A stretch of DNA of 64,000 bases from Tachypleus tridentatus (Eukaryota > Arthropoda > Merostomata > Xiphosura > Limulidae), in contig NC_134827.1 of the NCBI RefSeq assembly GCF_004210375.1, positions 102,099,285 to 102,163,284 of the forward strand, in the 5' to 3' direction. Made by a program: the position numbers and the translations under genes. Below are positions 20,737-64,000 of the stretch, in pieces. The notes beneath the pieces are model-generated. The model was not told where the DNA came from. It did not search any database and saw nothing but the letters and a program-made list of their open reading frames with translations. Position 1 is the first letter of the stretch. Each line of letters opens with the position of its first letter.

Positions 20737-23315
20737 CAGGGGTTACCAAACATTTTTCACAGGGGACCAGATTACTTGGGGAATGAGAAGCGTGGGCCAC
20801 ATGATCATTATGTTCAATACTCATAAGCTAGAACGACAGCTCTCTGTAAAGACTTAACACTAAGTTTAGGATGCCACATTAGCCATGTGGGAGTAGCATG
20901 CAATACACACATATAATAAAAAACAAACAGAAATTCAACCAACATTTATATTTAACAAAAGGTTATCAAAGAAGGTGACATTAGCAAAAACAATTGTCAC
21001 ATCGCACATAGTGGGTACATATCTGAATTTCACTAAGCCGCAAAAAAGGTAGTGAGATTTATGAAATTGGCGTTTGGCTTTCAAAATATCTTCAATGTTC
21101 GGTTTGAATTGCTGCATCCAATCATTAGAATTGCTTTCAAATGTTCATCAGTCAACCTTGATCAATGTACCGACTTCACATACTTCATTTTTGAAAATGC
21201 TTGTTCACAGACATAAGTTGTTCCGAACACTGATGCCATACCAGATGCGAACTGCTTCAGCTTTGGAAAATCATCTTCAGGTATGCAGCTGTAAAATTCA
21301 GTAAGTTGTCCCTCTCTGCGTTTTGCTTTCAACAAGTCATTTCCTTGCAAATCGATGACCTCCAGCTGAAGTTCCACTGGCACGTCATCAATGACACAAC
21401 CAAAAAGATCCTGAAAAAGGAGAATGTCACTTTCGATTCTGTCGAGATCCGAAAATCTCTCTAAAAATGCTTATTTAAATCACCAATAATCTTTTTTTGA
21501 AACTCCAGGTTGACATCTTCTGTGATTCTAGCATGAAACTCATTGAAACAATAAAAATGAGAGAGGTTTCCTCCTTCCAAATGTGCTTCAAACAATGACA
21601 GCTTTCTCCGAAATCCTTTAATGATTCTATAGAGATTTCAAGTTCAATTCATTCATGTGGGATGTGATGTCAACCAAAAATGACAACTTTGACAACCATG
21701 TTGAATCTGACAGAAGTGGATCGACTCTATATTTCTCGATAAGAAGTATATCTATTTCTCTTCTCAGCTTACAAAAACGAGACAAGATTACCCCAGATGA
21801 GCCACCTCACCACCGTGTGATAAGACAAGTCACAGAAATCCGAATCAATTTCTTCAAGAAACGCCTTGAACTGGCGAAGATTAAGTGCATGACCCCGAAT
21901 GAAGTTCACTGCAGAAATGACTGGTTTCAGTACGCAAGAAACATCTAAGTCTTTTCCACAGAGTACTTGCTGATGTATGATGCAGTTTATGAACAGAGCG
22001 CTTGGGAGTTGAAGATCTTCCAACTGTTTCCTGATCAGCCCCACCAGACCCTTCTTTACTCCATCAACTGTTACACCTCTAAGCTGATTCCACTGAAGGT
22101 TATAGTCTTGCAAAGTTTTATGCACTTCCATGAAAATGTCTTCTCAGTTGTTCTTCCGTGCATGCTGCAAACTGATGCCAACTCTTCCGTGATCTGAAAG
22201 TCCAAATTAACTCCACGAATGAACACGAGAATTTGTGACGTACGCGAGAGATCAGTAGACTCATCCAGTGCCAAAGAATACCAGTGGGAGTTTCTAGCTT
22301 TTTGGCGTATCTGCAATGCGATGTTCTCTCCAAGTTCTTCTGCTCTCCGTACAACTGAAGTTGCTGCAAAGCTGATACTTTCAAAGAAATTGTCTTTTTC
22401 AGTACACAGCTCATTTGCTGCTTCCATCATACACTCTTTGATGAAGTTGCCGTCAGTAAAAGGTTTTCCTCGCTCTGCCATCCTATGCACTATTTTGTAA
22501 TTTGTACGAGTGACAGATTCAGTTTCAGCAAACTTTCTCGTGAAGAGATTCTTTTGAGATTCAAAAACACGTTTCATGGATTCAAATTTCTCAGAACGGA
22601 ACTTTCCTGAAAATTTCAAATATGTTGATAGATGTTTTGTTTCATAAGATTGTACTCTTTCAAAACGACAACACTTTCTGTGCATATCACACAAGTAGCT
22701 TTCTGTTTTTTTGTTTCCACAAAGAAGTGCTTTTCTCCCTATTCTTCACGACACTCAGAGTTCACTTTTCATCTTTTAAAACCAGCCATAACAATGGGTG
22801 ATTAAAACAGGATCTGGAAATGAAAAACATAGAACGCTGTGAGAAAAGTTTTGTCCTGGTCCAAGAACGCACAAACAAAATATATTGAAACGTACGTTTG
22901 CCACGACACTTACCTAAGAACGAGTTTCGAAAGCGCATAACCCGACTACTAAGAGAAATGAGCTTGCTGAAGCGGTATCCCAAGGCCGCTGAATTTATAA
23001 GACGAGTCGATAGGACGAGGGTTAAGTCTGTACTTGTTGTCGAAATCCTAATGCTTTCATAGATACGTGCCTCGATATGAATAAACGGGCAGCAAGGACG
23101 AAAGAAGCATTTTCCTATTGGTTAAAAATGCGCGTGACAGCTTTGTTTCTTTTTATCATAATGTCTCGTGTTTGCCAGCTTAAAGCGACCATCGGTGTGA
23201 TTTATTTTGTTACGACAGTCGGACATTTGCTGAAATGTCACTTTTTATTTCCAAGCGGCTAGCTGCTGGCGGGCCGGACAAAATAACCTCGAGGGCCTTA
23301 GTTTGGTGACCCCTG
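20737..23315 (-). mobile_element. hAT DNA transposon, 2,579 bp, inserted in a SINE1
   Basis: The ends are CAGGGGTTACCAAAC on the left and its near-perfect inverse GTTTGGTGACCCCTG on the right. They are flanked by the perfect 8-bp duplication GACTAAAG at 20729-20736 and 23316-23323. An 8-bp duplication and CAGGGG ends define hAT. The inside carries a broken transposase on the minus strand. The element sits within a reverse-oriented SINE1, so it is younger than that SINE. The last 243 bp are also present at 49021-49263. Confidence 0.95.
21020..22789 (-). pseudogene. hAT transposase pseudogene (GTF2IRD2/EPM2AIP1-like group)
   Basis: The likely start ATG is at 22789-22787 (MAGFKR, then a stop). 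A BED-like start follows (KKQKATCVICTES, YETKHLSTYLKFSGKF). The largest open block, 22694-22071, has RMAERGKPFTDGNFIKECM and SHWYSLALDESTDLSRTSQI, where the DEST aspartate fits the first catalytic Asp. After a frameshift, 22131-21769 reads GVTVDG, INCIIHQQVLCGKDL and SAVNFIRGHALNLRQFK, the segment typical of domesticated relatives such as GTF2IRD2. The C-terminal dimerisation end at 21383-21162 reads TYVCEQAFSKMKYVKSVH. A full protein would be roughly 590 residues. Several frameshifts and stops make it inactive. Confidence 0.88.
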
Positions 23316-23323
23316 GACTAAAG

Positions 23324-23495
23324 GGAAAGCAACTAGTCAACGTCACTCACCGCCAACTCTTGGGCTACTCCTTACCAACGAATAGTGGGATTGGCTATCA
23401 CATTAAAACGTCTCCACAGCTGAAAAGGGCGAGCGTGTTCAATGACTGGATTAAAACCCGCAGATTGCAAATCGTGTGGCCTAACCATTAGGCAC
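23324..23495 (-). mobile_element. SINE1 head half, split by the hAT insertion
   Basis: Continues the SINE interrupted at 20736, with CACCGCCAACTCTTGGGCTA body and a diverged head ending near CTAACCATTAGGCAC. The same half occurs in copy 2 at 49272-49443. Confidence 0.82.
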
Positions 23496-23625
23496 AGATT
23501 TCATACAGAACAATTTTCAAAACAAGCTAATTACAATAACTCAATCATAATTAAACTATTAATTAGAAGTACTATCTGAGGATATCCATTAAGAAAGATA
23601 CACTTTATAGGGTACAATCTAAGAT

Positions 23626-23772
23626 AGTGGGCTATCTGCTCTTGCCGTCCCCAATTTAGCAATGTAAGACTGGGGCTACTCTTTTATCAACGAAAAGTGG
23701 GATTGACCGTCACATTAGAATGCTCCGACGGCTGAGAGGACGAGCATGTTTGGTGTGACGAGGGAATCGAAG
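23626..23772 (-). mobile_element. SINE1 with internal deletion
   Basis: Reverse-oriented tail (GGGCTATCTGCTC...GTAAGACT) joined to the body at GGGGCTACTCTTTTATC, then the head side up to GTGTGACGAGGGAATCG. The segment between tail and body is lost. Copy 2 counterpart: about 49574-49720. Confidence 0.75.
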
Positions 23773-23775
23773 TAT

Positions 23776-23876
23776 ACGATAATGAAACTGATGTATCCTT
23801 TACACAACGTTGATTCAGTGAGAATTATATGATAATGAAACTGATGTATCCTTTATACAACGTTGATTCAGTGGGA
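23776..23876. repeat. Tandem duplication of a ~55-bp unit
   Basis: ATAATGAAACTGATGTATCC and CAACGTTGATTCAGTG occur twice, about 54 bp apart. The second copy (49724-49824) keeps the same two units. Confidence 0.85.
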
Positions 23877-24080
23877 AATGTTGTGATATGTATAACTTAC
23901 CTTCAATGGTGATACATCTACTTTTAAACACCGTGTTTTCACCGTACACGTTGACTTTGAATACCTTGTTATTATGACTACAGATATTTAATACGCGACG
24001 ACTAGCCAGTGGGTAACACGTCAGTTACGGAAGGAAGGGTGGGGGATAAAAGAAGAGCCGAAAACCCTGACAAAATTAAG

Positions 24081-24287
24081 ATGGACAACAATTTAATTTT
24101 TTTGAACTTAGAGGGGCGAGGGCTGTATTATTCTGGTAGAGTAAAAGCTCTTAGAGAAAGAACAGTTTATAAACTGACTGTCTCGGATATTGGTTCGTTC
24201 TGTCATGGTGTTAATATAACAATTACAGTTCCGTCGTGTCCAAAGGGTATATTACAGAGAGGGGGGCTGGGACAGATGACAAAATGA
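24081..24287 (+). CDS. Doubtful open frame, copy 1 (possible exon)
   Basis: From ATG at 24081 the frame reads MDNNLIFLNLEGRGLYYSGR, then VYKLTVSDIGSFCHG and VNITITVPSCPKGILQRGG before TGA. The alternating hydrophobic pattern resembles beta-strand protein. It is followed directly by a G run (six G) in which copy 2 has seven, which changes the C-terminus. There is no homology I recognise and no clear splice sites. It may be a chance frame or a piece of a larger exon. Confidence 0.25.
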   Translation: MDNNLIFLNLEGRGLYYSGRVKALRERTVYKLTVSDIGSFCHGVNITITVPSCPKGILQRGGLGQMTK

Positions 24288-24405
24288 TATCAAAACTACA
24301 ACTATGGAAACGCAAAATTGATAATACAGAGGAATAAGTGCCTCCTTGTCTTTTCCTGTTGGATCCACTGTTTGTATTCCAATATCTTCAGAAAAAAAAC
24401 ATATA

Positions 24406-24476
24406 TATGCTCCCAGCTGTGGGTGCGTTATAACAGTGATAGTCAAATCCCATTATTCAGTCAGACAAGAGTAGCA
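24406..24476 (+). mobile_element. SINE1 body fragment
   Basis: TGCTCCCAGCTGTGGGTGCG, then GTTATAACAGTGATAGTCAA and CCCATTATTC match the SINE1 body only; head and tail are missing. Copy 2 has the same at about 50358-50426. Confidence 0.65.
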
Positions 24477-24551
24477 TTTATTCTCGCCTATTAATTAAAA
24501 ATTAGAAATGGTTACAGCAGAAAGTTTTCGTAAATTAACACAAATAGCAGA

Positions 24552-24930
24552 AAACAGTTTTATTTTTATGTTTCTGTAAAGTGTATCTTGAAACTGAAAC
24601 CAGGCACAGTTTCTATCCTTGTGAGTAAACAAACAGTTTTTTTATGTTTCTGTAAAGTGTATCTTGAAACGGAAACCAGACACAGTTTCCACCCTTGTGA
24701 GTAAACAAACAGTTTTATTTTTTACGTTTCTGTAAAGTGTATCTTGAAACTGAAACCAGACACTCACAATTTCCACCCTTGTGCGTAAACAAACAGTTTT
24801 ATTTTTTATGTTCCTGTAAAGTGTATCCAGAAATTAAGATCTGATTAATGCATCTTTGTTCCCTGATGAGTAAATAAACAAACAGTTTTATTTTTATGTT
24901 TGTGCAAAGTGTATCTTGAAACTGAGACCA
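24552..24930. repeat. Tandem repeat, five units of about 75-80 bp
   Basis: Each unit has ACAGTTTTATTTTTATGTTT, then CTGTAAAGTGTATCTTGAAA, a CTGAAACCAG(G/A)CA segment and CCTTGTGAGTAAACAAAC. The fourth unit is the most diverged (ATCCAGAAATTAAGATC). Copy 2: 50501-50880. Confidence 0.9.
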
Positions 24931-24960
24931 GACAGATACACCTCTGTACCATGGTGTGTA

Positions 24961-25065
24961 AACGGCAAATTCACGAACTTACAATGCTGAAATCAGGGGT
25001 TCGGTTCCCCTGGGTGTGCAGAGCGCAGATAGTCCGTGGTTAGCTCAGCGTTAAAACAACAATAA
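24961..25065 (+). mobile_element. SINE2 (tRNA-like head)
   Basis: Anticodon-arm-like ACGAACTTACAATGCTGAAA, clear B box GGGGTTCGGTTCCCC, then GCAGAGCGCAGATAGTCCG and a short tail. The loop CTTACAA would match a Val(TAC) tRNA ancestor. This is the best preserved SINE2 in the window. Copy 2: 50911-51015. Confidence 0.72.
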
Positions 25066-25313
25066 CGAAACGAATGTATACAAGTATATTTTTCAGTTCA
25101 AATGCGCATGTGTACTGTGTAGTATATTTTGTTGTTTATAGCACAACAGTTTCCTCTTTATTGATTCTCTCCTAAATAAAATATTGGATGTTGGCAAACA
25201 GATTTCTACCTAAAAGTGAATCAGACAGTTACAAAGCAAAGTGAACAAATTTATACCTAACAATGAATTAAACATTGAAATGAATATGTGCTTAGTAAAG
25301 CGTCAAAGCGAAA

Positions 25314-25590
25314 GAGCCCGGCATAGCCAGGTGGTTAAGGGACTCGACTCGTAATCTGAGGGTCGAGGGTTCGAATCCTCCGTCACACCAAACATGCTCG
25401 CCCTTTCAGCCATAGAGGTGTTATAATGTGACGGTCAATCCCCCTGTTTGTTGGAAAAGGGTAGCCCAAGAGTTAGTAGTAGGTGGTGATGACTAGCTGC
25501 CTTCCCTCTAGTCTTACACTGCTAAATTAGGGACGGCTAGCGCAGATAGCCCTCGTGTAGCTTTGCGCGAAATTCAAAACAAACAAACAA
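25314..25590 (+). mobile_element. SINE1, full length, with 11-bp target-site duplication
   Basis: Head GCCCGGCATAGCCAGGTGG to tail AAACAAACAAACAA, flanked by TCAAAGCGAAA at 25303-25313 and 25591-25601. The same insertion is at 51420-51700 in copy 2, so it precedes the duplication. Confidence 0.93.
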
Positions 25591-25601
25591 TCAAAGCGAA
25601 A

Positions 25602-26029
25602 AATTCTTGTACTTCTGAATTAAAAACGAAGCAGAAACGTTTCTAATTAGAATGAAATAAACAATGCACTGAAATCGTTTGTATTTAATAAAGGGTTAAA
25701 TAGCGAGCTAAACTTTTTTTCTACTTACCAACGAATCAAACATGAGAATGTTCAGATTTATGCTTAACAATGAATTAAACAGTGGGAAAGTTATGGATTA
25801 AAAGTAAAAAACAAAGAAGTTTGCATCTTAGGAATATGTTACCTAAATAAAGAAATTTATATTTAATAATAAGTTAAACTGGAAATAAATAAGTTAGCAC
25901 TAGGTAATAATAGCAAGCACGTGAAGAAGGTATGCCACTTTGGTGTTTTATTTTTTTGACATAATAGTCGACTGAACAGAGACAATTAATTAATTCTATT
26001 CTCGAGATTGAAGAGAGTTTGTTTGTTTT
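25602..26029. other. No recognisable feature
   Basis: AT-rich spacer with weak internal similarity (repeated phrases like ACAATGAATTAAAC). No coding frame. Confidence 0.4.
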
Positions 26030-26233
26030 TTTTGAATTTCGCGCAAAGCTACATAGTTATTTGCGCCAGCCGTCCCTCATTTAGAAGAGTAAGACTAGAG
26101 GGAAGGCAGCTAGTCATCATCACCACCCACCGCCGACTCTTGGACAACTCTTTTATCAACGAATAGTGGAATTGACCGTCACATTATAACGCACCCAACG
26201 CCTGAAAGGGCGAGCATGTTTGGTGTGACGAGA
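26030..26233 (-). mobile_element. SINE1 lacking the tRNA-like head
   Basis: Reverse-oriented tail and body from TTGAATTTCGCGCAAAGC to GAGCATGTTTGGTGTGACGAG. The head beyond is absent. Copy 2: 52153-52357. Confidence 0.85.
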
Positions 26234-26353
26234 ATAGAACGTATTCTAAATTTCGAATGTTTTGTTTTTTATCATACGTAAACTTACTATCGTTTCGTGT
26301 TCTAGGTGTCGTTTTACAGTAATTCTTTTTAATACTCGGTAAAATAAGAATGA

Positions 26354-26400
26354 AAACACGTGATCGAATCAAACATTGTGTTTGATTCGACCACGTGTTT
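26354..26400. repeat. Near-perfect hairpin with CACGTG in both arms
   Basis: Arms 26354-26375 and 26379-26400 are inverse complements over 22 bp with one mismatch, around a 3-nt loop. The left arm starts AAACACGTGATCGAATCAAA. A third copy of the arm lies at about 26651-26672 (AAACACGTGGTTGAATCAAA). Copy 2: 52477-52523. Confidence 0.85.
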
Positions 26401-26612
26401 CCCCGTCGCGCCAAACATGCTCGCCCTTTAAGCCGTGGGGGCGTTATAATGTGACGATCAATCCCACTATTCGTTAGTAAAAGAGTAGCCCAAGAGTTGG
26501 CGGTGGGTGGTGATGACTAGCTGTCTTCTCTCTAGTCTTACACTGCTAAATTAGGGACGGCTAGCACAGATAGCCCTCGTGTAGCTTTCTGCGAAATTCA
26601 CAAAACAAACAA
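26401..26612 (+). mobile_element. 5'-truncated SINE1 with 11-bp target-site duplication
   Basis: Starts at the end of the B box (CCCCGTCGCGCCAAACATGC) and runs to the tail. It is flanked by ACCACGTGTTT (26390-26400) and ACCATGTGTTT (26613-26623). In copy 2 both flanks read ACCACGTGTTT, so copy 1 has lost a CpG in the right flank. Confidence 0.9.
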
Positions 26613-26623
26613 ACCATGTGTTT

Positions 26624-27178
26624 TTTTTTTTTAATCCAGTACTAAAAAGAAAACACGTGGTTGAATCAAACGTTACGTTACTCAGAGAAGTTCCAAACTT
26701 TGCATCAAACTAATGAAAATAAATACTGAAGTATTGACAACAAAAGAAACATCTGACACCTGCTGGGAGAAATCTTCACTCCAGTCTTTGTGTTTGTGTG
26801 TGTGACGAAATGTTTGGATACCGAATAACATAATTTAATTTCGGAAACTGTCACAGGTTTATACAGTCTCGTGGTATTAATATCAACAGTTATGAAACTG
26901 TTCTTCCTCCTTCAGGGTAAACCCAAGGTTTAAATCCTCTCCGACATAAGTAATAACACTGCGCTGTCGTGTCGTTGTAGTAATATTGACGACATTGTCA
27001 AATTGAGAAAGCAATCAACGTACACCGACAAACAAGGACACTGGAGGCCAGAGATGAAACCGATTTCCAACAAGGCCCGCCCATCTGCCGTGTACTGCAA
27101 TATTACGCCACTTGAGACCTGTCTCTCTCTCGCATTTGGAACTCAAGTCTCTACCTTTTCGCTCTGATACTTCCCGCT
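26624..27178. other. Upstream region of the receptor gene, copy 1
   Basis: No gene or recognised repeat. It contains a short GT tract near 26792 and a moderately GC-richer part (27040-27150) just upstream of the TATA-like motif. Likely the proximal regulatory region of the receptor. Confidence 0.35.
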
Positions 27179-27188
27179 TAAATATAAG
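27179..27188 (+). promoter_or_regulatory. TATA-like promoter candidate for the receptor, copy 1
   Basis: TAAATATAAG lies 186 bp upstream of the ATG at 27374 and is followed by ACACGTGGCTCG. It is preserved exactly in copy 2 (53311-53320). A start site about 25-30 bp downstream is inferred, not shown. Confidence 0.35.
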
Positions 27189-27373
27189 ACACGTGGCTCG
27201 TGCCTGCCAAAGAAAATATTTATTTTGTGAGATACGTACTTTGCATTCTTACTAAGCGAACTATAATAAACGTCAGAACTTTTATGACACAAAAGGAAAA
27301 ATAAGGTAAAATTTATTGCAAAATAATCTGTTTCTCTTTGTCTAAAACAAATCTTTTCGACGAATTCCGAGAC

Positions 27374-28486
27374 ATGAATGGTAATAATAGTTTAAGTGAC
27401 AGCAGCTCGAACGTTTCTCTCTCAACGGAAGCGAATTCGTCGAAGAAGGAACTCTACGAAATTGTCGTTCCGCTCATGCTGACGATGTGTTTCGTCTCCA
27501 TGTTTTTTAACTTGGTTATCGTAGTCTCTGTAAAGTGGGTCCGTCGATCCGTTTCCCCCACGCTGTGCTTCAACCTGAGCCTGGCTGCGGCAGATGCTTA
27601 CGCGTCTCTTATTCTAGGACTGGGTTTAGTTATCAACAGCCTGCTTCCAGAGGTGTATAACATCCGGCTTCACACCCGCTGCATCGCCTTGACTCTGGAA
27701 GCGTTTCGGCTGGGCGGGCTGTCCGTATCCGTCTACCACCTGCTGGCTTTGACCGTAAACCACTACGTGGGAATAGTACGTCCACTCCACTACGCCGCGA
27801 CCGTGACACGAAGAGCAGTGGCCGCGACTGTCACCGGTATCTGGGTCGGTTCCCTGTCCTTCTTTTGTCTATATTTTTCTCTTGTGAGAAATCAAGGTTT
27901 TCGGTCGCCGTACTGCAGCGTAAACACGTTCTACCAGCTCTCGACGTTCAGAACCATCGTGTCCACACTGTTCTTCTTGCCCCTGGTCATCATGACCGTA
28001 ATTTACAGTCACATCTTATTCGTGATCCGTCAACACCAACAGAGACTCCTTCAGGTGCCCTCATCTCGTCAGTTCCACCGAAACGTGAAGGCTGTGGTCA
28101 CCACGCTACTAATCCTAGGAACTTACCTCTTGTGTTGGATGCCCGCAGTTCTCTTCTTTGCTGTCAGCTGTTTAGATTGCGTAGCTCCTTACACACAAAT
28201 ACCAGACACAGTTCTCCTTCCAGTGGGAATCGTCATAAACAGCCTGATTATCCTGAAGTCGTTAGTCAACCCCGTAATCTATGCAGCTCGTATGACAGAA
28301 GTCCAAGACGCTCTTCGCGCTATGCTCCCCAAAAAGTGTGATGTTCAACCACCTGATACTGCCGTCAGACAGCGAGCCCTGCTCCGTAGGAGGGGCACCT
28401 TCACGTCCAGTACCAGGATGGTGTCTTTCCGTAACTCCACTCACAGCCAGCGCCATATATCGGGTTCTGAGGAGAGCTATACGTAG
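27374..28486 (+). CDS. Single-exon rhodopsin-like (class A) GPCR, orphan, copy 1
   Basis: 370 aa from the first ATG; the frame is open 12 codons further up but only from a TTG. The N-terminus has three N-glycosylation sites (N4, N13, N21). Seven hydrophobic segments carry class A landmarks: N46 in TM1, LAAAD with D74 in TM2, W157 in TM4, P203 in TM5, CWMP (254-257) in TM6 and NPVIY (299-303) in TM7. C103 and C181 could form the TM3-ECL2 disulphide. The DRY triplet is NHY (129-131), followed by VGIVRPLHY. Counting back from it, position 3.32 appears to be Arg, so the amine-binding Asp is absent. The tail has a possible palmitoylation Cys (C322). A plasma-membrane receptor; the ligand cannot be named. 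Confidence 0.93.
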   Translation: MNGNNSLSDSSSNVSLSTEANSSKKELYEIVVPLMLTMCFVSMFFNLVIVVSVKWVRRSVSPTLCFNLSLAAADAYASLILGLGLVINSLLPEVYNIRLHTRCIALTLEAFRLGGLSVSVYHLLALTVNHYVGIVRPLHYAATVTRRAVAATVTGIWVGSLSFFCLYFSLVRNQGFRSPYCSVNTFYQLSTFRTIVSTLFFLPLVIMTVIYSHILFVIRQHQQRLLQVPSSRQFHRNVKAVVTTLLILGTYLLCWMPAVLFFAVSCLDCVAPYTQIPDTVLLPVGIVINSLIILKSLVNPVIYAARMTEVQDALRAMLPKKCDVQPPDTAVRQRALLRRRGTFTSSTRMVSFRNSTHSQRHISGSEESYT

Positions 28487-28497
28487 TTGACAGGTTT

Positions 28498-28503
28498 AAT
28501 AAA
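28498..28503 (+). terminator. Polyadenylation signal AATAAA, copy 1
   Basis: AATAAA begins 12 bases after the receptor stop codon and is conserved in copy 2. A second AATAAA lies near 28905, so a longer 3' UTR is also possible. Confidence 0.45.
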
Positions 28504-29266
28504 ATATTTACTGGAGAGATTCCCACCTGCGAATGTGGGATTACACTTTTGTTGAAATGTTTATATACGGTCTCGTACTGGGGTTAAACGAACAATTCTT
28601 TTTCTCTTGTTATTGCACGTGTCGGTAAACTTTGTACGGCTAAAATGTGTATTTAAAAAAGCGTAAAACAAATACTTCACGAATATTCGACGTAAACTAT
28701 ACTGGACCGTGAATATCCAAAAATAAGTAGGCTAAACTGACGTGAAGCGAATAAATCATTTGTATTTAATATATACGAATTGCGTAAACAAAGGTGAACA
28801 AATATTTAATATTTGTTTCTCTTGTACACCTTGTAAGCCTGTCTTTCCTTTAATCAGCTTGTAGGTGTTATCGTTCTTTGATGTTTACCGAAAGAAATAA
28901 ACACGTTTATATATGTATGGCGGTAACAGCGAACACTTGTCTTGAAATTGTTATTATTGTCTTTTAAGATGTGACGTCTGTAAGTGTTTCTTTGGTCCAC
29001 AGTAAAAAACTGTTATGATGAAATATATCAAAATAAAACTATGAATTAGGAGAAAACGAAAGATATATCAAAGTAAATGTCGTTTTAGTCAGGTTCGAGA
29101 GTCTCGACCGTTTCGGAACGTGGATGCGAAATGGCGAAGTGCATAACCTACACCATTTTCTTCGTGCAGCTACTAACTTTGAGAAAAGACACTAGTTTGT
29201 ATTAAAAGTCAGGGTACCTGTGATAACCACTGTACAGCTGTCAGAAATAAAGTTAACTTGTCTGGT
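28504..29266. other. Receptor 3' flank, copy 1
   Basis: AT-rich, no gene seen. By eye it differs from copy 2 at several single bases per kilobase, more than the receptor coding region does. Confidence 0.45.
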
Positions 29267-29365
29267 TGCTATTAAGCACAAAGCTACACAAGAGGGTATC
29301 GGAACTCGAATTCTAGCGTCGTAAGCTCGAGAACTTACCTCTGAGCCACTGGGTAGCAGCCGATA
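29267..29365 (-). mobile_element. SINE2, reverse orientation
   Basis: Reads TAAGCACAAAGCTACACAAG (tail), GGAACTCGAATTCTAGCGTC (B-box side) and GAACTTACCTCTGAGCCACT (anticodon-to-A-box side). Copy 2: 55399-55495. Confidence 0.65.
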
Positions 29366-30331
29366 ACTGAAGTATATGAGACAGCAGTTGGATAACAAAA
29401 TCCTAATCCATGACCAGGTGAAAAACGCAGTTGGAACAGAATCAGTTCTCAGTGATCCAGACGGATCAATGATAATGGTAGTCGGACCAGGAATGGGATT
29501 TAGTATTACCTTATGGTAAATCATCGACAGTGTTGTTTATTAGTTGTAGAAACTGTATCACAGTCTGTTGCTAAATAATATTAGCTAAAAACAATATACA
29601 CGTTCCATTTAGAAGCTGCTTAAAAAACCAGTGAGAAATATCGTAAATGTATATAGTTTGTAATGTGTTAATTGGAAGCTACATATATATATATATCTTT
29701 AACACAAACTGCAGTTACGTGTATTTACAGGTTACTGCAGCAATCGAGAATAACAGTTTATCACCTAATTATTCATTAGAAAGAAAACCCGTTGTATTAT
29801 TATAATTTAGTATTTTTAGAGATTCAGGCTATGTGTGCATTTATTGTATTCGGTTTGGCGTTTGTGACGCTGGATGTTTGTATCAGATAATAAACTTACT
29901 ATATATATATATATATATATAAGAATTTATTCGCTGTTTATTCTTTTTTGTTTCACAATATATGCATACATATATATGTTCATGTTAAAACAAGAAAACA
30001 AATCAACGTATTTGTTCTACATAATATTACTTCTTTATTTTCAAAACTGAAACCTAAACTAACGTATAATTTTATGAGGTTAGATGCTGTTCTGTTATAA
30101 ATTGAAAGAAATATTTGATTTAGCTTTTAAGATAAAGAAAGCTGACTCTTTTTTTTAATCTATTTGCATTTCAATACTATCATAGTACTGAACAATCTTT
30201 AGGCCTAACGTACACTCTTGGAATTCGTTTTCGAGTACTCACGCAAGACTGTCCCTGCTAGTTGTCCCTAATTAAAGCAGCTAATCAATAGCAGTTTTTG
30301 TTCTAATCAAATGATGCTCGGCCTGCTACTA
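29366..30331. other. AT-rich spacer with TA microsatellites
   Basis: Contains TA runs near 29682 and 29900 that differ in length from copy 2 (55813, 56036). No gene seen. Confidence 0.5.
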
Positions 30332-31547: not shown

Positions 31548-31611
31548 TATCTAAGTAATGAATATACGATAACTCAGTATTAGTGCCAACTCATTACATG
31601 TGCCAACAGTT

Positions 31612-32112: not shown

Positions 32113-32120
32113 TTTTATTA

Positions 32121-50880: not shown

Positions 50881-50910
50881 GACAGATACACCTCTGTACC
50901 ATGGTGTGTA

Positions 50911-53310: not shown

Positions 53311-53320
53311 TAAATATAAG
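53311..53320 (+). promoter_or_regulatory. TATA-like promoter candidate for the receptor, copy 2
   Basis: TAAATATAAG, identical in sequence and in distance from the ATG to copy 1. Confidence 0.35.
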
Positions 53321-53505
53321 ACACGTGGCTCGTGCCTGCCAAAGAAAATATTTATTTTGTGAGATACGTACTTTGCATTCCTACTAAGCGAACTATAATA
53401 AACGTCAGAACTTTTATGACACAAAAGGAAAAATAAGGTAAAATTTATTGCAAAATAATCTGTTTCTCTTTGTCTAAAACAAATCTTTTCGACGAATTCC
53501 GAGAC

Positions 53506-54618
53506 ATGAATGGTAATAATAGTTTAGGTGACAGCAGCTCGAACGTTTCTCTCTCAACGGAAGCGAATTCGTCGAAGAAGGAACTCTACGAAATTGTCGT
53601 TCCGCTCATGCTGACGATGTGTTTCGTCTCCATGTTTTTTAACTTGGTTATCGTAGTCTCTGTAAAGTGGGTCCGTCGATCCGTTTCCCCCACGCTGTGC
53701 TTCAACCTGAGCCTGGCTGCGGCAGATGCTTACGCGTCTCTTATTCTAGGACTGGGTTTAGTTATCAACAGCCTGCTTCCAGAGGTGTATAACATCCGGC
53801 TTCACACCCGCTGCATCGCCTTGACTCTGGAAGCGTTTCGGCTGGGCGGGCTGTCCGTATCCGTCTACCACCTGCTGGCTTTGACCGTAAACCACTACGT
53901 GGGAATAGTACGTCCACTCCACTACGCCGCGACCGTGACACGAAGAGCAGTGGCCGCGACTGTCACCGGTATCTGGGTCGGTTCCCTGTCCTTCTTTTGT
54001 CTATATTTTTCTCTTGTGAGAAATCAAGGTTTTCGGTCGCCGTACTGCAGCGTAAACACGTTCTACCAGCTCTCGACGTTCAGAACCATCGTGTCCACAC
54101 TGTTCTTCTTGCCCCTGGTCATCATGACCGTAATTTACAGTCACATCTTATTCGTGATCCGTCAACACCAACAGAGACTCCTTCAGGTGCCCTCATCTCG
54201 TCAGTTCCACCGAAACGTGAAGGCTGTGGTCACCACGCTACTAATCCTAGGAACTTACCTCTTGTGTTGGATGCCCGCAGTTCTCTTCTTTGCTGTCAGC
54301 TGTTTAGATTGCGTAGCTCCTTACACACAAATACCAGACACAGTTCTCCTTCCAGTGGGAATCGTCATAAACAGCCTGATTATCCTGAAGTCGTTAGTCA
54401 ACCCCGTAATCTATGCAGCTCGTATGACAGAAGTCCAAGACGCTCTTCGCGCTATGCTCCCCAAAAAGTGTGATGTTCAACCACCTGATACTGCCGTCAG
54501 ACAGCGAGCCCTGCTCCGTAGGAGGGGCACCTTCACGTCCAGTACCAGGATGGTGTCTTTCCGTAACTCCACTCACAGCCAGCGCCATATATCGGGTTCT
54601 GAGGAGAGCTATACGTAG
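53506..54618 (+). CDS. Single-exon rhodopsin-like (class A) GPCR, orphan, copy 2
   Basis: 370 aa, differing from the copy at 27374 by one residue, S8 to G in the N-terminal extracellular tail (AGT to GGT at 53527). I see no other base difference in the coding region by eye, while flanks differ at several positions per kilobase. All seven membrane segments and the landmarks (D74, NHY 129-131, CWMP 254-257, NPVIY 299-303) are the same. If the duplication is real, both copies look functional. If it is an uncollapsed haplotype, this is the second allele of one gene. Confidence 0.93.
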   Translation: MNGNNSLGDSSSNVSLSTEANSSKKELYEIVVPLMLTMCFVSMFFNLVIVVSVKWVRRSVSPTLCFNLSLAAADAYASLILGLGLVINSLLPEVYNIRLHTRCIALTLEAFRLGGLSVSVYHLLALTVNHYVGIVRPLHYAATVTRRAVAATVTGIWVGSLSFFCLYFSLVRNQGFRSPYCSVNTFYQLSTFRTIVSTLFFLPLVIMTVIYSHILFVIRQHQQRLLQVPSSRQFHRNVKAVVTTLLILGTYLLCWMPAVLFFAVSCLDCVAPYTQIPDTVLLPVGIVINSLIILKSLVNPVIYAARMTEVQDALRAMLPKKCDVQPPDTAVRQRALLRRRGTFTSSTRMVSFRNSTHSQRHISGSEESYT

Positions 54619-54629
54619 TTGACAGGTTT

Positions 54630-54635
54630 AATAAA
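54630..54635 (+). terminator. Polyadenylation signal AATAAA, copy 2
   Basis: Same position relative to the stop codon as in copy 1. Confidence 0.45.
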
Positions 54636-56458
54636 ATATTTACTGGAGAGATTCCCACCTGCGAATGTGGGATTACACTTTTGTTGAAATGTTTATATAC
54701 GGTCTCGTACTGGGATTGAACGAACAATTCTTTTTCTCTTGTTATTGCACGTGTCGGTAAACTTTGTACGGCTAAAATGTGTATTTAAAAAAGCGTAAAA
54801 CAAATACTTCACGAATACTCGACGTAAACTATACTGGACCGTGAATATCCAAAAATAAGTAGGCTAAACTGACGTGAAGCGAATAAATCATTTGTATTTA
54901 ATATATACGAATTGCGTAAACAAAGGTGAACAAATATTTAATATTTGTTTCTCTTGTACACCTTGTAAGCCTGTCTTTCCTCTAATCAGCTTGTAGGTGT
55001 TATCGTTCTTTGATGTTTACCGAAAGAAATAAACACGTTTATATATGTATGGCGGTAACAGCGAACACTTGTCTTGAAATTGTTATTATTGTCTTTTAAG
55101 ATGTGACGTCTGTAAGTGTTTCTTTGGTCCACAGTAAAAACTGTTATGATGAAATATATCAAAATAAAACTATGAATTAGGAGAAAACGAAAGATATATC
55201 AAAGTAAATGTCGTTTTAGTCAGGTTCGAGAGTCTCGACCGTTTCGGAACGTGGATGCGAAATGGCGAAGTGCATAACCTGCACCATTTTCTTCGTGCAG
55301 CTATTAACTTTGAGAAAAGACACTAGTTTGTATTAAAAGTCAGGGTACCTGTGATAACCACTGTACAGCTGTCAGAAATAAAGTTAACTTGTCTGGTTGC
55401 TATTAAGCACAAAGCTACACAAGAGAGTATCGGAACTCGAATTCTAGCGTCGTAAGCTCGAGAACTTACCTCTGAGCCACTGGGTAGCAGCCGATAACTG
55501 AAGTATATGAGACAGCAGATGGATAACAAAATCCTAATCCATGACCAGGTGAAAAACGCAGTTGGAACAGAATCAGTTCTCAGTGATCCAGACGTATCAA
55601 TGATAATGGTAGTCGGACCAGGAATGGGATTTAGTATTATCTTATGGTAAATCATCGACAGTGTTGTTTATTAGTTGTAGAAACTGTATCAAAGTCTGTT
55701 GCTAAATAATATTAGCTAAAAACAATATACACGTTCCATTTAGAAGCTGCTTAAAAACCAGTGAGAAATATCGTAAATGTATATAATTTGTAATGTGTTA
55801 ATTGGAAGCTACATATATATATATATATATCTTTAACACAAACTGCAGTTACGTGTATTTACAGGTTACTGCAGCAATCGAGAATAACAGTTTATCACCT
55901 AATTATTCATTAGAAAGAAAACCCGTTGTATTATTATAATTTAGTATTTTTAGAGATTCAGGCTATGTGTGCATTTATTGTATTCGGTTTGGCGTTTGTG
56001 ACGCTGGATGTTTGTATCAGATAATAAACTTACTATATATATATATATAAGAATTTATTCGCTGTTTATTCTTTTTTGTTTCACAATATATGCATACATA
56101 TATATGTTCATGTTAAAACAAGAAAACAAATCAACGTATTTGTTTTACATAATATTACTTCTTTATTTTCAAAACGGAAACCTAAACTAACGTATAATTT
56201 TATGAGGTTAGATGCTGTTCTGTTATAAATTGAAAGAAATATTTGATTTAGCTTTTAAGATAAAGGAAGCTTACTTTTTTTTTTAATCTATTTGCATTTC
56301 AATACTATCATAGTACTGAACAATCTTTAGGCCTAACGTACACTCTTGGAATTCGTTTTCGAGTACTCACGCAAGACTGTCCCTGCTAGTTGTCCCTAAT
56401 TAAAGCAGCTAATCAATAGCAGTTTTGTTCTAATCAAATGATGCTCGGCCTGCTACTA
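54636..56458. other. Receptor 3' flank with SINE2 and TA microsatellites, copy 2
   Basis: Counterpart of 28504-30331. SINE2 in reverse at about 55399-55495. The TA run near 55813 is longer and that near 56036 shorter than in copy 1. No gene seen. Confidence 0.5.
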
Positions 56459-57676
56459 CACTACATGGCCAAAAGTATGTGGACACCCCTTCTAATTAGT
56501 GGGTTCGGCTATTTCAGCCACATCCATTGCTAACAGGTGCATAATATCAAGCATACAGCCATGCAATCTCCATAGACAAACACTGGCAGTAGAATGGGTC
56601 GTACTGAAGAGTTGAGTGACTTCCAACAAGTCAATTCGTCAAATTTTTGCCCCGCAAGAGCTGCTCCGGTCAACTGGAAGTACTGTTATTGTGAAGTGGA
56701 AACGTCTAGGAGCAACAACGGCTCAGCCACGAAGCGGTAGGCCACACAAGCTCACAGAACGGGATCATCGAGTTCTGAAACACGTAGCGCATAAAACTTG
56801 TCTGTCCGCAGTTGCAACACTCACTACCAAGTTCCAAACTGCCTCTGGAAGCAACGTCAGCACAAGAACTTTTCGTTGAGAGCTTTATGAAATGGGTTTC
56901 TATGACCGAGCAGCCGCACATAAGCCTAAGATCACCATGCGCAATGCCAAGCATCGGCTGGAGTGGTGTAAAGCACACCGTCATTGGACTCTGAAGCAGT
57001 GGAAACGCGTTCTCTAGAATGATGAATTATGCTTCACCATCTGGCAGCCTGATGGACAAATCTGGGTTTGGCGGATGCCAAGAGAACGCTAACTGCCTGA
57101 ATGCATTGTGCCAACTGTAAAATTTTGTGAAGGAGGGATAATGGTGTGGGTCTGTTTTCTATTATTTGGGCAAGGCTCTTTAGTTCCAGTGAAGGAAAAT
57201 TTTAATGCTACAGCATACAATGACATTCTAGAGAATTGTGTGCTTCCATCTTTGTGGCAGCAGTTTGTAGAAAGCCTGTTTTTGTTTCAGCATGACAATG
57301 CCCCCGTGCACAAAGCAAGGTCCATAAAGACATGGTTTGCCGAGGTTGGTGTAGAAGAACTTGTCTGGCCTGCACAAAGCCCTGACCTCAACCTCATCGA
57401 ACACCTTTGGGATTAATTGGAACACTGGCTGCGAGCCAGGCCTTCTCGCCCGGCCTCAGTACCTCATTTCACTAATGCTGTTGTGGCTGGATAGGAGTGA
57501 ATCCCAGCAGCTATGTTCCAAATAGTAGTGAAAAGCCTTCCCAGAAGAGCGGAAACTATTATAGCAGCAAAGGAAGGACCAACTCCATACTAATACCCAT
57601 TGTTTTGGAATGAAATGTTCAACAAGCACATATGGGTGTGATGGTCGGTCATCCACATACGTTTGGCCATGTAGTG
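56459..57676 (+). mobile_element. Tc1-like DNA transposon, inactive, copy 2
   Basis: Same ends as copy 1 with TA at 56457-56458 and 57677-57678. Confidence 0.95.
56596..57600 (+). pseudogene. Tc1 transposase pseudogene, copy 2
   Basis: Same N-terminal deletion and frameshift as copy 1, so those breaks predate the duplication. The 3' half is open from 57108 to 57416: [31 protein letters not shown] and [10 protein letters not shown] are all in one frame, giving the second and third catalytic residues (D and E of DD34E). The first Asp region is still preceded by a stop. Less decayed than copy 1 but inactive. Confidence 0.9.
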
Positions 57677-57740
57677 TATCTAAGTAATGAATATACGATA
57701 ACTCAGTATTAGTGCCAACTCATTACATGTGCCAACAGTT

Positions 57741-58010
57741 TGGTTGTTTACAATTTCGCGCAAAGCTACACGAGGGCTATCTGTGCTAGCCGTCTATAAT
57801 TTAGCAGTGTAATACCAGAGGGAAGGCAACTAGTCATCACCACCCACCGTCAACTCTTGGGATACTCTTCTATCAAAATAATGGGATTGACCGTCACATT
57901 ATAACATCCCAACGGCTGAAAGAGCGAGCATGTTTGGTGTGATGGAGGATTCGAACCTTCGACCCTCAGATTACGAGTCGAGTGCCTTAACCACCTAGCC
58001 ATGCTGGGCC
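57741..58010 (-). mobile_element. SINE1, full length, copy 2
   Basis: Target duplication GTGCCAACAGTT at 57729-57740 and 58011-58022. Confidence 0.93.
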
Positions 58011-58255
58011 GTGCCAACAGTTAAAGGAAATAGTCCCACTGGTAGAAATCATACTTTTCCTTTGTATTACAAATAACTATACAACAACCGTATGATGTAT
58101 TAGATGGAAAATAACAAGTCTATAACACCCACCGCCAACTCTTGGATTACTCTAATCGAATATTGGGATTCTGACCGTCACTCTTATAACTCACTCACAG
58201 AAGGACACGAGACATGAATCCTCAGAATCATAGTCCCTCACGCCAACTTTTATTA

Positions 58256-59479
58256 TCAGGTCATCCTATACGTAATGTCCAAAAATTCAATACAGTTTTA
58301 ATAACTGAAATATGTAGTAGGACGTGTATAAAAATGTTCACACAAATTAAAGAAACTAACCCAACTCCACTGTTTTAGATCATTAATCAAATAAACCTTT
58401 ACGAAGATGGATGTGTCTGAGGAGCACATTAGGTATATGCTTTATGCGTTTAATAAAGGCAGTAGTGCAGCAGAAACAATACGAAACATTCAAGGTATTT
58501 ATGGTGTGGAGTCTTTTAATGAAATGAAATGTCGAAGGTGGTTTCAGAAGTCCAGATCAGGTGATTACAGCTTAAGTGATGCACCACGTTCAGGTCGTCC
58601 TGTTGAGTTTAATGGTGACTTGCTGCTGGCTGCACTTCATGAAGATTGTGTTGTAACAATTAAAGAACAAGCAGAGAAGCTTAATTCAACCCATTCAACA
58701 GTTCGTCATCATCTGCAACAGCTTGGAAATGTGTCAAAACTTGGAAAATGTGTCCCCCATGAGTTGACAAAAGCCAAGCTTTAGAGCAAGAGTGGACATT
58801 TGCACTTCTCTGCACTCTCGTGAAAGTAAATCACTTATTTAGGACAGGTTAGTAATTGGAAATGAAAAATGGATATTTTATAAAAATCTTAAGCGCTGCA
58901 GACAATGGCTCAGTGCAAATAAACTGACTAAAGCACAGCCCAAAATGGACCTCCACCCTAGGAAGATCTTGTTAAGCGTTTGTTAGGATATTGTTGGTGT
59001 GATCCACTTTGCGTTGCTGCCACTCAAAGTAACGATTACATCAGACTTCTATTGTCAACAGTTAGAGCGCTTGAATGTTGCACTGAAAAAGAGGCCTGAT
59101 TTGATCTGTCGTAAAGATGTTGTGTTACATCAGGATAATGCACGGGTCCATGCAACAAGGACCACATCTGTAAAGATTGAAGAGCTCCTTCTTATTCTCC
59201 AGACCTTGTCCCATCTGATTATCATCTGTTCCGAAGTTTGCAGAACTATCTTGATGGAAAAGGACTTGGAACACATGAAGACGTCAAAACTACCCTCTAC
59301 ATTCGTTTTCTCCAAACCCCAAGAATTTTATAGAAGACATCCAGAAGTTTGTGAATCGTTGGCAGGAAGTAATTAACAATAATGGAACATACATCATTGA
59401 TTAAATAACATTAAAAGTATTTGAAATCCTTTCACTTTTTCTGAACCTAAAATTGAACATCACTCAAGGGACGACCTGA
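58256..59479 (+). mobile_element. mariner DNA transposon, inactive, copy 2
   Basis: TA at 58254-58255 and 59480-59481; terminal repeats as in copy 1, the left one with CCTATACG for CCTTCACG. Confidence 0.94.
58407..59407 (+). pseudogene. mariner transposase pseudogene, copy 2
   Basis: N-terminal half open for 125 codons with MDVSEEHIRYMLYAFNKG and APRSGRPVEF. The same stop after KAKL and the same mutated first Asp box (GNEKW) occur as in copy 1. The second catalytic motif reads HQDNARVH, closer to the mariner consensus than copy 1's HQDDAWSH. Third box out of frame. Inactive. Confidence 0.92.
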
Positions 59480-59736
59480 TATATTCTAGGTCACCATTTT
59501 AATACTATGGATCTGATTCAGTGTCGTTGTATTTTCTTATGTTGCATCACACAACATTCGAATTACATTGATAATTCAAAAAATTTCAAAGTTTTAAAAT
59601 AATGAATAAAATATTTATTTAAAGGGATATCGTGTATTTTCAGAGCAAAATTTTCCCTTTTTCCAAAGAAAGGAAAGAAAAACATTTATTAAACAAAAAC
59701 ACAGAGAGGGCATCACTGAATCATGTACCATTTCTA

Positions 59737-60579
59737 AATGTATGTAAAATCAGCTGGTTTGGGTTGAGAAAATCTTTTTATGTAGAGGAGCGAACAACGT
59801 TTCGACCTTCTTCGGTCATCGTCAGGTTCACAAAGAAAGAGAGGTAACTGAACAATAGCTGACCACATGTTTGAAGGGGGGTTATGTAACTGAGTGTAGG
59901 AATGTAGAGGGCGTGCTTAGATGTTTGAATATATTTTTTTATATATGTATAAAGGTGTTCCTTTGTATTGGTTTATTTTGGGCTTGATTTGTTGTATAAG
60001 TAAGGCTTCTTTAATTTTGCGTTTGTTTATGTTTGTTTCTTTATTTAATATTTGAGTGTTTACTATGGTTATATTGTGTTGATTTGACTTGCAGTGTTCG
60101 AAAACGTGTGAAGGTGACTTTTCGTGTTATCTGAATCTGGTTTCCATTTTTCTACTTGTTTCTCCAATACAGAAGTCGTGGCAGTTATCACATTGTATTT
60201 TATAAATAATGTTGGTGTGGTGTTTGTCAGTGTAGTTTTTTCATTAGTATAGACCTTAGTTTTGTGTCTGGTTTTTGAATAAATTTGGTATTAACTGGAA
60301 TGTCATATTTTGTTACTAGTTTTTGCCAAATGTTGGTTATTTTTTCTACTGATGTCGGGAATATATGGTATGCAGCAGTATATGGTTTCGTGATATTTTG
60401 ATTCGTGAGATATATTTACTTTTGTTGGTTGATTTTGCTTTCTGTCTAGGTGTGTGAGTACAATGTTTTCTCCGGTTTGTGGAGGAAACTTATTGATGTT
60501 GATGAAGTATTGTTTTATTTTGTCTAATTTGTCCTTAATTTTGTCTGGCGACCATAGTTTTATGGTTGTGTTTATTTGG
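59737..60579 (-). pseudogene. Penelope-like element PLE-B, frameshifted, copy 2
   Basis: Counterpart of 33600-34440. An extra T near 60341 shifts the frame after DISRK, so copy 2 carries an additional break absent from copy 1. The shared SINE junction and truncation show that the insertion predates the duplication. Confidence 0.88.
59790..59831 (-). ncRNA. Hammerhead-like ribozyme motif in PLE-B, copy 2
   Basis: Identical over 42 nt to 33653-33694 and to 12669-12710. Confidence 0.62.
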
Positions 60580-60809
60580 TTCGAATCCCGATCGCACCAA
60601 ACATGCTTCGCCATTTCAATCGTGGGGGCGTTATAATGTGATGGTCAATCCCACTATTCGTTGGTAAAAGAGTAGCCCAAGAGCTGGCGGTGGGAGGTGA
60701 TGACTAGCTGCCTTCTCTGTAGTCTTACACTGCTGAATTAGGAACGGCTAGCGCAGATAACCCTCGAGGAACTTTGCGTGAAATTAAAAAAACAAAACAA
60801 ACAAAACAA
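60580..60809 (+). mobile_element. SINE1 lacking its head, abutting PLE-B, copy 2
   Basis: Counterpart of 34441-34670, nearly identical. Confidence 0.85.
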
Positions 60810-61160
60810 TTTAGTCCATAAAAACCCGATTTTTTTAATTCCTGGATTAACTCAGATTTCTATCAAAGTTCTCAATTAAACAAGGGTAAATACAGTTATA
60901 GTACATACGTTGTGGGTAAAAGCTCAGTGACTTCTTTTGAATAACCATCCATAACATAGCCTCGTTCCCATAGCATAGCCTGGTTTTCAGCTTTACTAGT
61001 TATTTTAAACACAGCGCTTGACGAACGGTGATCAGATTACAGTGTTATTTTAATAGATCTCTCAGTCTTCTGACAGTCGAGCCAATACAGGCGCCCCCAC
61101 ACCTTGGACAAGAGAATTCGTAATTGGCAAATAACTAATTTCAATTTTCAAACCTGGAAG

Positions 61161-61411
61161 TCCTGGCATGACTTAGTAGTTAAAGAGCTTAACCCGCAGT
61201 CTGTGGGTCGCGGATTCGAATTCTCGTCACACCAAACACTCGTTTTTTCACCCGTGGGGTATTCTAATGTTAGGGTCGTTCTCACTATTCGTTGGTAAAA
61301 TGGTATCCCAGATGTTAGCGATGAGTGTTGTCAACTAGTTGCCTTCCCTCTATTCTATCACTGCGTATTTAACCCTCTTGTAGCTTTTCACGAAATTCAA
61401 AGCAAACGAAA
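61161..61411 (+). mobile_element. SINE1, diverged, copy 2
   Basis: Counterpart of 35039-35291. Confidence 0.82.
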
Positions 61412-61488
61412 CCTAACCTCAAATAAATAAGTATAAAGTCTAAACACACAATGAAGGAGAGCTAATGGATAGACTGTTGATTATTCAT

Positions 61489-62803
61489 GATGACGAGAAA
61501 CCCACTTGAAGTAAAAATGAATCTCAAGACGGTCGGTGTGGGTATTAAAACTTTTATTGAAATAGAGAACAACGTTTCGACCTTCTTAGGTCATCTTCAG
61601 GTTAAGAGGTTAACCTTCAGGTTACCCATACCAGTCGTCTTTAGATACAGACTGCCGATTATAATGTTTAATTTCTTATTCAAGCTTCGTTACAATATGA
61701 CGCAAAATCAAAGGTAAAAATATCGGTCTTCCAACTGGAAGCTATCAACAATTAGTGTAGTCTTTCACTGATAACGTTTTGACCAACATGTGTGAGCTAG
61801 TCAGTTGAGATGGGTCATATCAGAGGGAAAGATGATTTTACGATGATTAACATCCAACTGTCTATGCAACATACCTTTAACTGTAGATAATTTAATGAAC
61901 GAGAATAAATATAAATATGCATGCAATTTCATAAAACATAAACTGATATCAGTGTAAATGCATTGATTCATCAGAAGCCCCCAGCTCATCATTGCGTTTC
62001 GATACCCATGGTGGGCACAGCGCAGAGAGCCCATTAAGTAATTTTGTACTTAACAACAAACAAACAAAATGGCTCCATGAATTGAGTACTTCACTGTTAT
62101 CGACATTTTCGGCCATAATCCAGTTAATGTCTCCTCAAGCCAAAATAAATAGTGAGGCATTACAGTTGACAGCTGTTGTATTTAGGACATAATTTGGACC
62201 AACACCAAATATCATATATCAAAAGAAATAGAGTTTAAACTAATTTTTTATAATTTTTTTTTTAAGTTCCAAAAATCCTTAAATTTTTATGTGGGAGTGA
62301 TAATAATATAATTGTGAACTTTTTATAAGCGTGGACAGAAAGTTGCAGAAAAAAAAAACGTTTTCAGTTGGTATTAAGTATAAGATTACATTGTAAATAA
62401 TGAACGGTAATTCAGTTTAAAAGTCCTGTTTACCTTCTTACTCATAATGAGCTCTTACCCACAACTAGCTCATACGCAAATTACATTTCTTGCCTTATCC
62501 AATTTCCGACTAGTATACTTTCTTTACCGTAGGTGCAGTTTACTCTATACTAAAAAAAACAAAAAAAAAACACCAAAAGAACAGAAAACAAAGTTTTACA
62601 GGTCAATATAATTGTCTCATGTCGTGTGAAATTTGTTTGCTTTTCATAGAACAGTGACAAAACAACTTTTCCTGTTGTGATGTATAACTGATTACCTTAA
62701 GAAGGTCGAAACATTGTTGTGCGCTTTATTTAAATAAAAGTTTCAATACCCATACCAGCCCTCTGGAGAATACATTTTTACTTCAAGTGGGTTTCTCGTC
62801 ATC
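61489..62803. mobile_element. Foldback element with PLE-like inverted repeats, copy 2
   Basis: Counterpart of 35368-36699. It lacks about 10 bp after the hammerhead-like core (GGTTAAGAGG for GGTTAACAAAGAGG...). A few bases are missing near 62207 (ACACCAAATATC in place of ACACCATTGTGGTCC). A SINE2 tail fragment lies at about 61988-62068. Confidence 0.65.
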
Positions 62804-62868
62804 ACTAATTGAGTACATCATTAAAGTTATGATACAGTTTTGTCCCTTCTTTTCCCTCCCCCACAAAT

Positions 62869-62934
62869 GACACAGCGGAATATCTGCGGACTTACAACCG
62901 CTAGAAACCTGGTTTCGATGCCCGCGTATCATAG
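62869..62934 (+). mobile_element. SINE2 head fragment, copy 2
   Basis: Counterpart of 36766-36830. Confidence 0.6.
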
Positions 62935-63044
62935 AGTTTCAACAATATGTTAACATGCTTTCTTTGAGTGAAGCAAATACTTTATATAATAAACCTTAAA
63001 ATTATCTGAGGCTTTCGAATGCTTTACAGTAACATCCAAAACAG

Positions 63045-63310
63045 GGCCCGGCACGGCCAAGCGTGTTAAGGCGTGCGACTCGTAATCCGAGGATCGCGGG
63101 TTCGCATCCCCGTCGCGCCAAACATGCTCGCCCTTTCAGCCGTGGGGGCGTCATAATGTGGCGGTCAATCCCACTATTTGTTGGTAAAAGAGTAGCCCAA
63201 GAGTTGGCGGTGGGTGGTGATGACTAGCTGCCTTCCCTCTAGTCTTACACTGCAAAATTAGGGACGGCTAGCGCAGATAGCCCTCGAGTAGCTTTGCGTG
63301 AAATTCAAAA
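63045..63310 (+). mobile_element. SINE1, 5' member of composite repeat, copy 2
   Basis: Counterpart of 36941-37205. Confidence 0.9.
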
Positions 63311-63565
63311 ACCAAACTACGTCCACTACTTTTTTGATAATGTACTCAGTGTGCTACTGTTGTCATGTTATATAAATAAAACCTTTTATATTTATTAATA
63401 ATCATAAGTTAAAATGAAAGTTTATTCATGTGTACACATAATATGGTTTTGAAACGCTTAGAACATTAAACAGAAACGTGAAGTTAACAAATTAGTACTC
63501 AACCATAATATGCATAATTAGAACATATACCTTCAAATAAGTATCCTGTGTTTCTCTCATCAGCT
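63311..63565 (+). repeat. Linker of the composite repeat, PLE-free, copy 2
   Basis: Counterpart of 37206-37461 with a few substitutions; carries the empty PLE site. Confidence 0.85.
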
Positions 63566-63842
63566 GGCCCGGCATGGACAGGTGGGTTAAGGCGTTCGCT
63601 CGTAATCAGAGGGTCACAAGTTCGAATCCTCGTCGCACCAAATATGCTCGCCCTTTCAGTCGTGGGGGCATTATAATGTTACGGTCAATCCTACTATTCG
63701 TTGGTAAGAGAGTAGCCTAAGAGTTGGCGGTAGGTGGTGATGACTAGCTGCCTTCACCCTAGTCTTACACTCCTAAATTAGGGACGGCTAGCACAGATAG
63801 CCCTGGTGTAGCTCTGCGTGAAATTCAGAACAAACAAACAAT
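63566..63842 (+). mobile_element. SINE1, 3' member of composite repeat, copy 2
   Basis: Counterpart of 37462-37738 with a 1-base deletion in the anticodon arm. Confidence 0.9.
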
Positions 63843-64000
63843 CATTTGAATATAATAAAATACAACGCTTGATTGGAATAAGGAAGTTTTTACCGATAAA
63901 AACACCAAATTTTATTCAAAGAACAACATCAGAATTTCTTGTAGTCTCAGTTCTTTGTGTTCAAAGTGAATCTTGAGGGGCTATTGATTAGTCGTTGTTT

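Follow-up and report, generated by a model that had tools for sequence, protein, structure and literature searches.

In the available part of the report on the natural CUP1 arrays of yeast (PMC4232551), these tandem duplications are attributed to unequal nonhomologous recombination, and the corresponding part of a survey of human copy-number breakpoints (PMC4090240) describes them as enriched in tandem repeats. Assembly errors offer a third comparison: the false duplications found in assemblies are presented as mostly gap-separated, with gap-filled exceptions allowed, in the accessible text of Ko et al. (PMC9516828). The window analyzed here (64,000 nucleotides, C3:102099285-102163284) contains two near-identical copies of a segment that encodes a rhodopsin-family G protein-coupled receptor (GPCR), separated by a minisatellite array. 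We read it, with a probability of about 0.8, as a real head-to-tail tandem duplication whose unit now measures ~26 kb and for which the sequenced animal is heterozygous. One chromosome seems to carry the receptor-bearing 26-kb stretch twice and the other once.

As in the CUP1 arrays, a gene-bearing stretch is copied head-to-tail alongside single-copy relatives and ends without long homology; unlike them, the stretch has one of its ends within a long minisatellite and is present in just two copies, and the mechanism is deduced from one junction. The location of one breakpoint within a tandem repeat is in agreement with the human survey, from which the present locus differs as a single case in another organism, with a 49-bp minisatellite. 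The adjacent near-identical copies at allele-like divergence recall false heterotype duplications, but here no gap separates the copies and a third, single-copy contig is present. The duplication would be a copy-number variant of an ordinary kind, closely resembling an assembly error.

The assembly searched comprises 2,167,478,450 bases in 205 contigs. Beyond the window, the next 80 kb rightwards and 120 kb around the third match were examined; positions above 64000 are counted from the window start. The duplicate segments were compared by BLAST and MAFFT, substitutions being counted in ungapped columns, and all structural conclusions were drawn from assembled sequence.

The repeated unit and its junction

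The two copies lie on the same strand, 23071/23073-37897 being aligned with 49019/49021-64000. The match between 23073-37897 and 49021-64000 reported in the initial annotation was recovered. Of 14,778 ungapped columns, 134 differ (0.91%), by a transition in 92 cases and by a transversion in 42, and 28 indels were counted in addition; the offset between the two starts (49021-23073) reproduces the proposed tandem unit of 25,948 bp. A divergence of 0.91% is ordinary in size for alleles. The differences had been described as roughly 1% and scattered: the overall level was correct, but their distribution is not even. The block 31667-33324, which holds a short interspersed element (SINE) and a mariner, contains 53 of the 134 substitutions (~3.2%) versus 0.62% elsewhere (81 in 13,167), and the largest cluster among 5000 random placements in a window of that size was 33. 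The transposon insertions and target duplications said to be shared by both copies were indeed found for the two that were checked, the mariner (TA on both sides) and the 3' end of a hAT transposon. Between the short direct repeats ATATTgGATGTT/ATATTaGATGTT, copy 2 contains 156 bp (51137-51292) that are missing from copy 1 (at 25186).

The left breakpoint, 23073, falls within the hAT transposon, whose terminal inverted repeats are CAGGGGTTACCAAAC/GTTTGGTGACCCCTG and whose 8-bp target duplication GACTAAAG is found at 20729-20736 and 23316-23323. Copy 1 and the third copy described below each have the complete element with its two target duplications; truncation is seen solely at copy 2. On this sequence pattern, the left edge of copy 1 represents the ancestral state, and the only derived junction is 49020/49021. 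A 31-mer spanning this junction occurs once genome-wide with up to 2 mismatches allowed. No N base was found in the 64-kb window or in the following 80 kb (144 kb from the window start), whereas the two gaps seen within 120 kb of sequence surrounding the third copy, both of them contig joins, carry 500 N apiece; the junction without N therefore favors a real duplication.

The initial annotation had suggested looking for a second minisatellite array to the right of the window. Copy 2 extends past the window edge to such an array at 66041-67533, followed by the right flank, which begins at 67534; the whole unit is repeated and the second array precedes this flank. The copies are arranged head-to-tail with one novel junction, and their outer flanks occur once in the contig. 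The presence of the second array and of the right flank where a tandem model places them argues for a real duplication.

The event would have joined a break inside the 49-bp minisatellite to a break in the upstream hAT, with 2 bp of microhomology, the partner of the exchange being the sister chromatid or the homologue. Nonhomologous unequal exchange or microhomology-mediated replication could account for the joining. The expected product would begin with segment 1 and an array interrupted in mid-unit, continue with segment 2, headed by the truncated hAT, and close with another array and a single right flank. Later changes in the length and unit types of the arrays would have followed, unless array 1 derived from a different allele. 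The copies may have diverged in cis once an old duplication had taken place, or two alleles may have been joined by an exchange between homologues.

Two candidate explanations of the junction were set aside. Duplication mediated by the hAT was ruled out, the break lying 243 bp inside the element and not at its ends. Homologous unequal crossing-over as founding event was also ruled out, as the array unit aligned with the plus strand of the hAT at a score of 16, not above the scores with 100 shuffled hAT sequences (mean 19, maximum 25). Two 8-mers that the region of the break shares with the array were not used, ~1% of the window positions having as many.

The unduplicated contig and its neighbors

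The third copy, C3:102478806-102530650, is inverted and occupies 51,845 bp between two gaps of 500 N, 315 kb right of the window end. In window orientation, it comprises left-flank sequence (from 12645), a complete hAT, a single segment, an array and the right flank, and it ends within a 56-bp array. At the site of the 156-bp difference it has the shorter form, like copy 1. This unduplicated arrangement is best read as the other haplotype, so that the 51.8-kb contig would represent the unduplicated chromosome; a single diploid animal is presumed to be the DNA source.

The two neighboring contigs are likewise matched by inverted near-copies elsewhere on C3, at 100.72 Mb (99% identity) and at 101.99 Mb (96%). 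Each was tested with a single 2-kb probe, the second of which additionally has a partial inverted repeat nearby, and in view of these near-copies the stretch was read as parked haplotigs. No second near-identical copy was detected for any of three probes outside the third copy's span (6000-8000, 87200-89200 and 107000-109000). C3:102463285-102583284 consists of three consecutive contigs split by 500-N gaps, each with an inverted near-copy on C3 within ~2 Mb. To judge from its sequence, this region probably holds unpurged haplotigs.

The position of the third copy on the same chromosome could also suggest a real inverted paralogue, in which case the window copies would be alleles or the duplication would be fixed on both chromosomes. 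We consider this very unlikely: the third copy is bounded by gaps on both sides, its end matching 12645-15100 is error-rich, with clustered differences (62 substitutions and 35 indels), and both its neighbors are duplicated in inverted orientation in the manner of parked haplotigs. Still more improbable is a source of DNA from more than one animal, with three haplotypes of a single-copy locus assembled and two of them misjoined. Three sequences could then be obtained without duplication, but a gap-free misjoin would still be required.

Two alleles or three sequences

A single-copy locus in one diploid animal would be represented by two sequence versions. The arrays were compared by their whole-unit types. 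The subtype GTGTA accounts for 168 of the 188 whole units of array 1, while ATTTA accounts for 19 of 30 in array 2 and 68 of 118 in the third copy's array (118.5 units in total). Array 1 contains 54 unit types, array 2 contains 12 and the third array 26; arrays 1 and 2 have one type in common, array 1 and the third array two, and array 2 and the third array seven. Units of types present in the third array make up 23 of the 30 units of array 2 versus 4 of the 188 of array 1. Array 2 and the third array also end at the same natural right edge, and array 1 stops in mid-unit. A genome-wide search for the minisatellite pattern, with 2 mismatches allowed, returned 183 matches in forward and 118 in reverse orientation; these counts are fully covered by array 1 (153), array 2 (30) and the third array (118), so that at this stringency the repeat is confined to the locus and the third copy.

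The segments were compared by clean isolated substitutions per kb. Copy 1 differs from copy 2 at 4.1 to 5.9 per kb (13.3 in the mariner block), the third copy from copy 2 at 3.5 to 5.6 (12.2 in the mariner block) and the third copy from the right flank at 9.2 and 3.75. Between the third copy and the window left of the junction, the rate is 0.4 at 12645-15100, 2.2 at 15101-18700, 0.2 to 0.8 at 18701-31600, 3.3 at 31601-33400, 1.7 at 33401-36300 and 4.0 at 36301-39580. In this last stretch all three sequences carry private substitutions (copy 1, 14; copy 2, 10; third copy, 14). The three copies each have a different length of a 19-bp repeat near 34.8 kb, and the 5-bp motif AGATT is missing in copy 1 alone. 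Three distinct versions were thus found, which, given one diploid animal and an allelic third copy, is more than the two alleles of a locus can account for. A common haplotype for copy 1 and the third copy was rejected in view of the differences between them in the arrays and in the 36.3-39.6 kb stretch.

Several observations weigh on the other side and would suit a false heterotype duplication, in which two alleles of one locus are laid in tandem in one contig and no duplication exists; we regard this as unlikely. The divergence between copies 1 and 2 is of allele-like size. Heterozygosity of the mangrove horseshoe crab is given as 0.8% in the available part of one report (PMC7210998); taken as a lead only, this value would make 0.9% more naturally allelic if the sequenced animal belonged to such a species. 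The two breaks fall in repeats, on which assembly also fails, namely the minisatellite and the hAT, which has at least 38 further genome places among 40 scored candidates (at most 93% alike, apart from the third copy), and haplotig-like contigs are present nearby. Copy 1 almost equals the third copy across 18701-31600, with 7 clean substitutions in 12.9 kb and 26 of 29 indels in homopolymers, and this stretch looks like nearly one haplotype with consensus errors added. At 102 sites of 23073-34800, copy 2 departs from the other two sequences, as against 13 sites for copy 1 and 9 for the third copy, a pattern which alone would suit one haplotype assembled twice. The three-way difference comes mainly from ~5 kb plus the arrays, and the clustered private changes at 38988-39021, and at 36456-36465 beside an indel, could be consensus errors. 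Finally, the case is made from the assembly itself. A phase switch inside copy 1 is possible and would explain the low-difference stretch, but it does not remove the third version.

Against a false heterotype duplication stand the absence of a gap at the junction, an overlap at the join of no more than 2 bp, and the three sequences with three arrays, one above the limit for a single diploid locus. The choice between real duplication and uncollapsed haplotypes had been left open in the initial annotation. The second array, the gap-free junction and the three versions favor a duplication; uncollapsed haplotypes are indeed an issue at this locus, but the likely uncollapsed one is the single-copy contig 315 kb to the right. 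Half depth over both copies had been proposed to refute a real duplication. This would fail if the duplication were heterozygous and the alternative haplotype had been assembled apart, both real copies then being at half depth. A gene-bearing heterozygous duplication can in this way mimic a false one in divergence and in expected depth, whereas the cut transposon, the array unit types and the single-copy contig can tell real from false without reads. If the tandem duplication is real, a purging step that mistook one of the window copies for an allele would remove a real gene copy.

A more speculative extension, which we hold to be rather doubtful, is that an exchange between divergent homologues at a hypervariable minisatellite put two alleles of the receptor gene in cis, that the array, which is confined to this locus, then grew, and that the site may be a hotspot for further changes in gene copy number in the population.

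Genes and mobile elements of the unit

The features of the window are collected in Table 1. The 370-aa receptor of the third copy is intact and identical to that of copy 1; the next-nearest match in the genome, on C10, is 63% identical. Among the 60 matches listed, comparison with solved structures returned general class-A receptors only. Over 27368-28486 (the open reading frame from its methionine plus two codons), 0 synonymous changes were counted versus 1.7 expected (P 0.18) and 1 nonsynonymous change versus 5.1 expected (P 0.036), a weak sign of constraint that cannot separate alleles from duplicates.

Table 1. Positions of the repeated unit, its arrays, genes and mobile elements, counted from the window start
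Feature	Position	Strand	Basis or remark
Whole hAT transposon, 2,579 bp, inside SINE	20737..23315	-	Open reading frames on minus strand; terminal inverted repeats and target duplication
Copy 1, part in window	23073..37897	+	BLAST/MAFFT; unit extends to 49020
Intact single-exon rhodopsin-family GPCR, 370 aa, copy 1	27374..28486	+	Open reading frame; Pfam 7tm_1, E 2.9e-26 (query from 27368)
Degraded mariner, TA-flanked, copy 1	32121..33342	+	Pfam HTH_48 and Transposase_1; in most divergent block
Remainder of unit, between segment and array 1	37898..39838	+	Copy-2 counterpart right of window
Array 1, 49-bp minisatellite, 188.7 units	39839..49020	+	Right end in mid-unit after interior-type units
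Derived junction, array interior to hAT interior	49020..49021	.	2-bp microhomology (CT), no N
Copy 2, cut by window end	49021..64000	+	Continues outside window to second array, 30.5 units
Truncated hAT, last 243 bp, then right target duplication	49021..49263	-	Cut by junction
Intact GPCR, copy 2	53506..54618	+	Ser8Gly, the one difference from copy 1
Mariner, TA-flanked, copy 2	58256..59479	+	Element ends

The mariner carries Mos1-type transposase domains and a TA target site. Divergence between the copies is five-fold higher in the block of SINE and mariner (31667-33324 / 57796-59461), and a further cluster of differences, between copy 1 and the third copy, lies at 32931-33037; it would perhaps reflect gene conversion or polishing with reads of other mariners. 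The transposase of the hAT, for which no Pfam family reached the cut-off, is presumed from its open reading frame. Within this element, the frame 21772-22143 gave a sub-threshold Pfam match to Bac_thur_toxin (E 0.0046, 16.9 bits for a cut-off of 25), which was taken as chance.

Searches of the window against Rfam and for tRNA genes gave no matches. The SINE resembles one of horseshoe crabs, and a scan of viral contigs returned 0 hits. The open reading frame 11770-12549, without Pfam match, resembles what we take to be a Penelope-like endonuclease domain. The stretches 11905-12758 and 33604-34442 are inverted relatives of one element, ~90% alike. Right of the window, six further minisatellites were observed at 76271-86489 and 111080-140961, with units of 43, 56, 44, 50, 58 and 43 bp.

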